Shown here: in pieces, positions 49,085-50,737 of the stretch | Position numbering within the stretch: the stretch's first letter is position 1 | Layout: each line of letters opens with the position of its first letter | From: Bombiscardovia coagulans | Lineage (GTDB): Bacteria > Actinomycetota > Actinomycetes > Actinomycetales > Bifidobacteriaceae | DNA length: 64,000 bases | Reading direction: 5' to 3' | Assembly: GCF_002259585.1 (NCBI RefSeq) | Contig: NZ_MWWS01000003.1 | Span: 24,308-88,307, forward strand | Position numbers and translations under genes: made by a program | The notes under the pieces: model-generated | What the model saw: only the letters and a program-made list of their open reading frames with translations | What the model was told of the DNA's origin: nothing | Databases searched by the model: none

Positions 49085-49441
49085 ATGACGACAGTAACCC
49101 TCAACACACATAACTTTCAAGAAACTATGGAAAACAACAAGCTAGTTTTCGTTGACTTTTGGGCTACTTGGTGCGGCCCTTGCAAGGCTTTTGGCCCGAT
49201 TTATGAGAAAGCTTCTGAAACTAATACAGACATAGTTTTTGGCAAGGTAGATATCGACCAAAACCAAGAACTGGCTGCTACTTTAGACATTCAAGCGGTA
49301 CCAACACTGATGATCGTTAAAGATGGACAAATTATCTTTAAACAAGCTGGAGCCCTGCGAGCTTCAGACCTGGATAGCGTCATCAGCCAGGCACGCAAGG
49401 TCACTCTAGACGAAGGCGACAAAGAAACCGCTCAAGCATGA
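49085..49441 (+). CDS. trxA: Thioredoxin
   Basis: 118 residues. Reduces protein disulfides in the cytoplasm. The active site W-C-G-P-C is at residues 29-33 and the cis-Pro loop reads A-V-P-T-L. The start has AAGGAG at ideal spacing. A single-gene unit with its own promoter and terminator. An extra tail of about ten charged residues follows the fold. The GGAAT-N18-GTT promoter suggests induction by thiol stress. Confidence 0.96.
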   Translation: MTTVTLNTHNFQETMENNKLVFVDFWATWCGPCKAFGPIYEKASETNTDIVFGKVDIDQNQELAATLDIQAVPTLMIVKDGQIIFKQAGALRASDLDSVISQARKVTLDEGDKETAQA

Positions 49442-49471: not shown

Positions 49472-49513
49472 ATGAGGTTACAGTCAAGGAATTTTGCATG
49501 TAACCTCATTTTT
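49472..49513 (+). terminator. Terminator after trxA
   Basis: ATGAGGTTAC (49472-49481) pairs with GTAACCTCAT (49500-49509), 10-bp stem and 18-nt loop, followed by a T run to 49513. Confidence 0.85.
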
Positions 49514-49535
49514 ACTCTTACAGCTGTTCAATTGT

Positions 49536-49675
49536 ACAGATTCGGCACTGAGTACTACAGTTGTATAGAAGCATGCTTGCCGGTGGTACTTTCATGCCAT
49601 AACAGCATTTAGCGAAAGTAGCATGCGAATGTGAACTATTTGCATGCTCACATGGAAAGCCCACCGAGGATCTGT
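49536..49675 (+). promoter_or_regulatory. Structured, switch-like leader of the G5 protein gene
   Basis: Nested pairing visible on +: outer stem ACAGATTC (49536-49543) with GGATCTGT (49668-49675, one G-T pair); second stem CGGTGG (49581-49586) with CCACCG (49661-49666); inside it two adjacent hairpins, TACTTTC/GAAAGTA (49587-49593 with 49614-49620) and AGCATGC/GCATGCT (49620-49626 with 49642-49648). A third GCATGCT copy at 49571-49577 can instead pair with 49620-49626, which would exclude the second stem. It lies 20 nt before the start codon region. I could not match it to a known riboswitch consensus; a c-di-AMP (ydaO) element is the obvious class to test given the gene type. Confidence 0.45.
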
Positions 49676-49696
49676 AAACAGAGATAGAGGAGCGTA

Positions 49697-50737
49697 ATGC
49701 CAACCCATCGTAGGAAACATACAGAAGCTTTAAGAGCATTGACCAAACGTCAGTGGCTAAGACTTGGAGCAGGTTGTGTTGCCCTGACAATGGTCGTAGG
49801 TGCAGGTTTTGCTTCACTAGGTTTCTATCAAAACCAAGATGCAACACCACATCCAGCCGCTACCGCCTATTCCGCAACGCAACCCGAACAGCAAGAAGTC
49901 TCCCGAGATTCTGTTCGTGCAGCCCTCTCTCACCGTGAGGGCGGTTCCAGTGCTGGAACTTCCTACGTGACTGTGCAGATTAATGGTGCCAATAAAATTG
50001 TTTTAGGCGAGCACTTCACTACAGTTAAATCAGTCCTTGACGCAGGCAACATTGTTTTAGAACCTGGCGATCAAGTCACTCCTTCTTTAGAGGAAAAGGT
50101 CACAGAATCGACAGTCATCAAAATAGACCGGTCTGATTCTAAAATAGTCACTGAGAATTCAACCATTCCCTTCAATACTATTGAAGAGAAAACTGACAGC
50201 TTGCCTGCCGGCACTAAAAAAGTAAAGACAGAAGGCAAGGAAGGTGTCATGGAAACAACCAGCCTTGTGACTACGGCTGGCTCAAAAAATCTATCAAGCA
50301 ATGTCTTTGCATCCTTTGTTAAAGAAGCACCAGTCAACAAAGTCATACAGGTCGGTACAGGAGCAGTGGTTACTGCAACTCCTGGAAAGAATGGCCCTGC
50401 TGGCGCACCTGCACCAACAAACGCAACAACAGCTCCTGTGGGAGAATCACAGAGCATTGCTCACGGCATAGTGCTTTCTCGAGGCATGGGCGAAGGAGAA
50501 TTCACCTGCCTTGTACAGCTTTGGAATAAAGAGTCAGGTTGGCGAACCAACGCCGCTAATCCTTCTGGTGCATATGGTATCCCCCAAGCATTGCCTGGCT
50601 CCAAGATGGCATCAGCCGGCGCTGACTGGCAGACCAATCCAACGACACAAATTACCTGGGGCTTGGGATACATCGCCGGCCGCTATGGTACACCTTGTGG
50701 TGCTTGGTCTCACTCGCAAGCTACTGGCTGGTATTAA
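49697..50737 (+). CDS. Secreted G5-domain protein with transglycosylase-like C-terminus
   Basis: 346 residues. Basic N-terminus and one hydrophobic helix (about 22-45), a signal or anchor. Then a DUF348-like segment (about 95-145), a G5 domain (about 150-220), a Pro/Ala/Thr linker, and a C-terminal domain (about 265-346) with L-W-x-K-E-S-G-W...N-P-S-G-A-Y-G-I-P-Q-A, the pattern of actinobacterial lysozyme/transglycosylase-like wall proteins related to resuscitation-promoting factors. The Glu in N-K-E-S-G is the likely catalytic acid. GAGGAG precedes the ATG. Expected to remodel peptidoglycan; regulated perhaps through the structured leader. Confidence 0.88.
   Translation: MPTHRRKHTEALRALTKRQWLRLGAGCVALTMVVGAGFASLGFYQNQDATPHPAATAYSATQPEQQEVSRDSVRAALSHREGGSSAGTSYVTVQINGANKIVLGEHFTTVKSVLDAGNIVLEPGDQVTPSLEEKVTESTVIKIDRSDSKIVTENSTIPFNTIEEKTDSLPAGTKKVKTEGKEGVMETTSLVTTAGSKNLSSNVFASFVKEAPVNKVIQVGTGAVVTATPGKNGPAGAPAPTNATTAPVGESQSIAHGIVLSRGMGEGEFTCLVQLWNKESGWRTNAANPSGAYGIPQALPGSKMASAGADWQTNPTTQITWGLGYIAGRYGTPCGAWSHSQATGWY

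Follow-up and report, generated by a model that had tools for sequence, protein, structure and literature searches.

A conserved structured RNA leader, and candidate riboswitch, upstream of a resuscitation-type cell wall gene in Bifidobacteriaceae

What kind of element precedes the cell wall gene of Bombiscardovia coagulans that lies behind a thioredoxin-like gene, and to which signal could it respond? The window, i.e. the whole stretch of 64,000 nucleotides analysed, holds at this place a leader that an initial annotation had read as a switch-like RNA of nested stems, adjacent hairpins and repeated GCATGC motifs. The leader sits between the thioredoxin-like gene and a gene encoding a 346-residue DUF348-G5-SLT (Rpf-like) protein with its ATG at 49697. 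Pfam analysis of the product matched G5 (6.8e-16) and DUF348 (3.1e-06) and gave the SLT domain 20.4 bits, slightly below the 21.3-bit Pfam cut-off, while no RNA-binding domain was found by Pfam in this protein. As a T-tailed inverted repeat (11 bp, loop of 16) stands behind the thioredoxin gene, the DUF348-G5-SLT gene probably has its own promoter; the repeat was missed by the terminator scan, which has a loop limit of 8.

A candidate promoter was recognised in the alignment of the genus leaders, where T49556, A49557 and T49561 of the -10 box are invariant in 18/18 sequences. It carries 7 of the 12 consensus letters and was not listed by the consensus promoter scan. The transcript would be expected to start near 49568, that is, upstream of 49600, the limit which the initial annotation had set for its RNA reading. 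This start bears on the outermost of the stems proposed there, ACAGAT (49536-49541) with ATCTGT (49670-49675). The conserved promoter's -35 box and spacer share bases with the 5' arm of this stem, and with a start near 49568 that arm lies in promoter DNA and is probably not transcribed. Furthermore, the outer stem is intact in only two (L001 and L002) of the five leaders with a GTACA box (L001, L002, L003, L005 and L008). Of the nested stems said to enclose the hairpins, the inner one stands (P1, below) and the outer one falls. In the same region, a CTGTACAG-like palindrome at 49530-49541 overlaps the -35 region, is kept with changes in L002, L003, L005 and L008, and may be an operator. A GTGAAGA-type box upstream of the promoter recurs in the sister-genus leaders L086, L089, L090, L092, L103, L104 and L108 and is possibly a transcription factor site.

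Features of the leader region, with window coordinates and the basis of each assignment
Feature	Position	Strand	Basis
Thioredoxin-like gene	49085-49441		
Terminator-like inverted repeat ATGAGGTTACA/TGTAACCTCAT, then T run	49472-49513	+	read from sequence
Candidate promoter: -35 TTGTAC (49532-49537), 18-nt spacer, -10 TACAGT (49556-49561)	49532-49561	+	genus alignment
Structured 5' leader, likely transcript start to base before ATG	about 49568-49696	+	covariance models R1 and R2; predicted start
PK5, GCATGC copy 1, 5' strand of proposed pseudoknot	49571-49576	+	pairing energies
P1, 5' strand CGGTGG	49581-49586	+	covariation
P2 hairpin, TACTTTC (49587-49593) with GAAAGTA (49614-49620)	49587-49620	+	fold of inner segment
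PK3, GCATGC copy 2, directly after P2	49621-49626	+	pairing energies
Proposed P3 hairpin, ATGTGA (49629-49634) with TCACAT (49648-49653)	49629-49653	+	inspection alone
P1, 3' strand CCACCG	49661-49666	+	covariation
Conserved GAGGATCTG after P1	49666-49674	+	alignment A5
Possible small hairpin P4 (TCTG..CAGA) before ribosome site	49671-49682	+	inspection of alignment
Ribosome binding site GAGGAG	49687-49692	+	sequence
DUF348-G5-SLT (Rpf-like) cell wall protein gene, 346 aa	49697-50737	+	Pfam match

To follow the leader among genomes, we used two covariance models: R1, built from 14 leaders of the window's genus with no leader of the sister genus g32 in training, and R2, built from 33 leaders, which themselves match by construction. 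R1 scored the window at 49570-49699 with 81.9 bits, this sequence being within its training set. It matched 44 of the 189 family genomes at E<=0.1, and at E<=0.01 twelve genomes of g32, in 12/12 at the start of the orthologous gene. R2 at E<=0.05 matched 48/189 family genomes with one match per genome, and both models found a single copy in each of the 27 genomes of the genus (27/27). All 42 R2 matches with E<=1e-5, from 25 genomes of the genus and 17 of the 112 of g32, adjoin the start of the orthologous DUF348-G5-SLT gene, and so do weaker R2 matches in G015 and G019; a confident R2 match was absent in 95 of the 112 sister-genus genomes. R2 matches in G092, G155, G120 and G186, with no homologous gene beside them, were taken as chance. 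A sample of 149 genomes of the order gave matches in 11, nine of them family members; the two outside the family (G254 and G215) were also taken as chance, no homologous gene being shown there, and the G254 match resembles a heat-shock CIRCE repeat. The R1 match in G128 (E 0.1) lies on a different contig from the orthologue. Searches of more than 40 genomes used stricter filters and scored only some candidates (e.g. 17 of 202 in the source genome), so that weak extra copies of the leader could be missed. The source genome is 1.74 Mb in size, and its named family relatives are mostly Bifidobacterium and Gardnerella. On its contig C11 (54897-55244) lies another gene whose product shares this C-terminal domain with the window protein at 51% identity; R1 and R2 found no copy of the leader there.

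The inner stem of the initial annotation, CGGTGG with CCACCG around hairpin-forming sequence, is present and covaries as P1. In an RNAalifold analysis of 14 leaders, with an alignment not fitted to structure, P1 was the only helix predicted and 5 of its 6 pairs were altered on both sides. In alignment A6, comprising 33 chosen leaders without L022 and L026, 96.0% of 198 P1 cells were paired compared with 83.6% after shuffling (0/500 as high); again 5/6 pairs change on both sides, and sliding the partners left at most 59.1% paired. Because A6 was fitted to P1, the pairs were recounted free of gaps, anchored on CC and GAGG. In 22 leaders 124/132 cells were paired (shuffled mean 110.5; 0/20,000 as high), a count that omits L022 and L026, where no 6-bp P1 could be placed, and near-identical leaders (L088, L090, L092 and most of the B. 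asteroides type). By group, the permutation reached the observed value in 2/20,000 cases for the genus and 864/20,000 for g32; like the other permutations used here, it does not correct for the relatedness of the leaders. Out of 40 further leaders fetched, 25 had an R1 match at E<=1 and only 13 (L086-L097 and L099) entered A6. P1 was set by eye in L091, L093, L094 and L099, for which automatic placement had picked another site, and the automatic placements of 3 to 6 pairs for L105, L115-L118, L123 and L125 were left unused; most of them had the ribosome site, or a point upstream of the leader, as their anchor. P1 is broken or shortened in three leaders of the genus (L022, L026 and L027). Three leaders in which no P1 was placed (L106, L116 and L119) still open with GUGUG a short way behind the -10 box, as though the 5' strand had outlived the rest. 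Overall, P1 covaries strongly among orthologous leaders, so a lack of covariation, which would have told against an RNA element, was not what we found. The covarying helix and the fixed gene partner indicate that a conserved structured RNA leader is present before the DUF348-G5-SLT gene. An upstream short reading frame ending at a TGA inside P1 was rejected as an explanation on inspection of the leaders: in L001, L002, L003, L005 and L008 the triplet is CGA, the frame of L018 is disrupted by an insertion, and the T/C change goes along with the P1 pair.

Folding energies are less telling than covariation. The segment 49536-49696 folded with z -2.44 (2/200 shuffles as good) and the likely transcript 49568-49699 with z -1.96 (9/200); the unconstrained best fold of the former was without P1, and that of the latter contained P1 and lacked the conserved P2, which appears when the inner segment of the window is folded alone and not in whole-leader folds. 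By inspection, a hairpin occurs at the place of P2 in 19 of 27 inner segments between the P1 strands, often followed by a second one (P3). The proposed P3 holds GCATGC copy 3 in its loop, and unconstrained folds favour the pairing of copies 2 and 3 over it. Beyond P1, GAGGA within the conserved GAGGATCTG region is invariant in 14 rows of A5, while the possible P4 shows a compensatory UUUGC/GCAAA in L008 and is missing in L003 and L005 (by inspection). The GAGGAG ribosome site just after the element, as described in the initial annotation, was confirmed from the sequence. The energies are only modestly better than those of shuffles and the best folds do not show the drawn structure; the evidence for a structured leader is the covariation. 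The modest energies of the inner segments (27 leaders: mean z -1.11, with 14 at -1 or lower and 3/27 at 0 or higher) would be in keeping with an RNA thermometer, or with plain secondary structure imposed by compositional or promoter constraint; we consider this unlikely in view of the P1 covariation and because the ribosome site is not buried consistently.

The three GCATGC copies (49571, 49621 and 49642) are indeed present, in a window where the hexamer is not enriched as a whole (17 found, 25 expected). The initial annotation had proposed two exclusive pairings of the middle copy, which would make the leader a switch between copy 1:copy 2 and copy 2:copy 3. In the window both pairings are strong, at -11.1 kcal/mol for the first and -14.1 kcal/mol for the second, yet the downstream pairing of the copy 2 segment is weak in L002 (-5.2 kcal/mol) and L005 (-6.5 kcal/mol) and takes another form in L003 (-7.6 kcal/mol) and L008 (-10.9 kcal/mol). 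The five leaders compared thus do not have the second pairing in common as a mechanism, and we regard such a switch as very unlikely. The first pairing, of the type PK5 with PK3, recurs with changed letters in the sister genus; within the window's genus most leaders form it weakly. Its strands read GCATGC/GCATGC in the window and GUGUGC/GCGCAC, GUGUGU/ACGCAU and GGUGCC/GGCACC in other leaders, and GUGCGC/GCGCAC as against GCGCGC/GCGCGC in L128 and L130. In 17 of 25 leaders, PK5 and the stretch that follows P2 paired at -7 kcal/mol or better, compared with 1, 3 and 4 of 25 for the controls. Swapped strands equalled the cognate ones in 35/20,000 permutations over these 25 leaders, which omit L022, L026, L027, L087, L094 and near-identical leaders and in which the P2 end was placed by eye. 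In g32 alone the value was 149/20,000; in the window's genus alone 4 of 11 leaders reached -7 kcal/mol and the value was 3975/20,000. An earlier run had given 412 (21 leaders), 1293 (14) and 598 (8) of 20,000. A control segment at offset 20 likewise favoured cognate pairs (504/20,000), which means that relatedness inflates this test. The pseudoknot has support over the 25 leaders and in the sister genus but is less firm than the P1 covariation, the conservation, the single detected copy and the gene partner. The strand order (PK5, a few bases, P1, P2, PK3, P3, P1) would fit an H-type pseudoknot with hairpins in two of its loops.

How could such a leader act? In the mechanism that we propose, the core would be an H-type pseudoknot in which the 5'-terminal PK5 pairs with PK3 and interlocks with P1, the P2 and P3 hairpins sitting in the two longer loops, and it would be followed by the conserved GAGGAUCUG and then by the ribosome site. 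The P1/pseudoknot core might be stabilised or loosened by a small molecule or ion, and ribosomes might in this way gain or lose access to the Rpf-like peptidoglycan gene downstream. The scan of the window listed no terminator on the + strand and the leader runs up to the ribosome site, which makes translational control the natural guess. We give about even chances to the leader being a ligand-responsive, cis-acting translational element of the riboswitch kind. Comparison of the leaders shows the conservation, the P1 covariation, the single detected copy and the fixed gene partner; a regulatory role, its translational level and a ligand other than c-di-AMP are inferred. Conserved masking of the ribosome site was unsupported in two tests. 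Predicted partners of the site differ between species, with no conserved one in 20 leaders; the row for L089, where a wrong site within the coding region had been taken, was disregarded. Pairing of the 5' strand with the site averaged -4.57 kcal/mol against -4.53 and -4.69 for controls in 24 leaders, with permutation values of 16056/20,000 over all 24 and 1941/20,000 for the g32 subset; in the window alone this pairing is possible at -6.1.

The lack of conserved masking also fits a leader that does not sense a small molecule and instead serves as binding site for a protein or small RNA, or determines how stable the mRNA is, as do the single gene partner, the one copy detected per genome and the variable P2 and P3 around a conserved core. 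We hold this reading to be possible, if rather doubtful. Pseudoknot cores with invariant flanks are common among ligand-binding RNAs, which speaks against it, and autoregulation of the ribosomal-protein kind is unlikely because the product is a cell wall protein without a Pfam RNA-binding domain.

If the leader is a riboswitch, c-di-AMP would be the first ligand to come to mind, since cell wall genes are described in PMC9960051 as the usual targets of c-di-AMP riboswitches in Actinobacteria. The initial annotation had pointed to this class while seeing no such consensus, and its observation was borne out: searches with RF00379 and all Rfam models gave no credible match. None of the 4227 families of Rfam 15 matched the window at the gathering score, loose thresholds applied to the window and 20 relatives yielded nothing but microRNA and viral IRES families with scores far under the respective cut-offs, and RF00379 did not match the window even at a loose threshold. 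Within the family, RF00379 was found in 0/189 genomes (stricter-filter search) and in 0/37 of a smaller set, and the DAC synthase domain was found neither in the source genome nor in 188 of the 189 family genomes. In contrast, among 22 genomes of other families of the order, 16 carry the c-di-AMP riboswitch and 18 the DAC domain. In G040, of another family, the riboswitch (L139, 1227-1382) ends no more than 4 bases from an open frame on the minus strand (348-1223), and the C-terminal domain encoded there shares 50% identity with that of the window protein; in G058, also of another family, the gap is 5 bases and the domain identity 52% (L140). The sole DAC domain among the 189 family genomes (G034, contig C49, 4834-5166) comes from a 76% complete assembly and may be contamination or a true relic.

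As DAC was not found in the source genome and 188 of 189 family genomes, c-di-AMP cannot be assumed as the ligand, and with DAC in 1/189 and RF00379 in 0/189 it was rejected as the likely one. A c-di-AMP riboswitch of divergent ydaO type, or a new aptamer for c-di-AMP, would agree with the ydaO riboswitches before the same gene class in other families of the order (see also PMC9960051). We consider it highly improbable, given the RF00379 result, also at the loose threshold, and a DAC domain confined to one incomplete genome. Bifidobacteriaceae appear to lack both the c-di-AMP signal and its sensor, and the leader described here may have replaced the c-di-AMP riboswitch before the same kind of gene.

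The suggestion that this may be a new regulator class is supported as far as a conserved leader without a credible Rfam match is concerned. Among the matches listed in open-access literature, as far as its texts were covered and with the 2017 survey of 224 candidate RNAs outside that scope, none describes this leader. The orphan RNAs proposed by Weinberg et al. 2010 (PMC2864571) share with it covariation and gene context as evidence; that text contains 'resuscitation' and 'cell wall' 0 times and mentions bifidobacteria once, in a reference. Together this suggests a previously undescribed conserved structured leader, for which a new riboswitch class is a real possibility. A fuller scenario, in which a new Bifidobacteriaceae riboswitch class with an H-type pseudoknot took over the resuscitation-type peptidoglycan gene after the loss of c-di-AMP and its riboswitch, and senses another cell wall or growth signal, is tentative and less likely than not. 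If the leader is a riboswitch, its ligand would reveal the signal that replaces c-di-AMP in cell wall remodelling of bifidobacteria, which are common symbionts of the gut and of bees. The related leaders, the covariation and the covariance model make this short RNA directly testable, and with or without a ligand it is a structured leader beyond those listed in Rfam 15.

Among known systems, SAM-II and preQ1 are H-type pseudoknot riboswitches. They share with the proposed core a 5' strand that pairs across a hairpin into the loop of the second stem, and a compact form ahead of the gene; unlike them, the leader would carry hairpins inserted in two loops, and it has no Rfam match. The SAM-VI riboswitch has a three-way junction, as the leader would, and precedes metK. 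It is a riboswitch of Bifidobacterium (PMC11274715), whereas our leader stands before another gene and is without an Rfam match. Similar in gene context is the c-di-AMP riboswitch, which according to PMC9960051 is also a leader of Rpf-like or NlpC/P60 cell wall genes in Actinobacteria and, in the case of nlpC of C. glutamicum, also lacks a canonical terminator. In contrast to that riboswitch, whose model it does not match, the leader of B. coagulans would be built on P1, two hairpins and a 5'-terminal pseudoknot strand.
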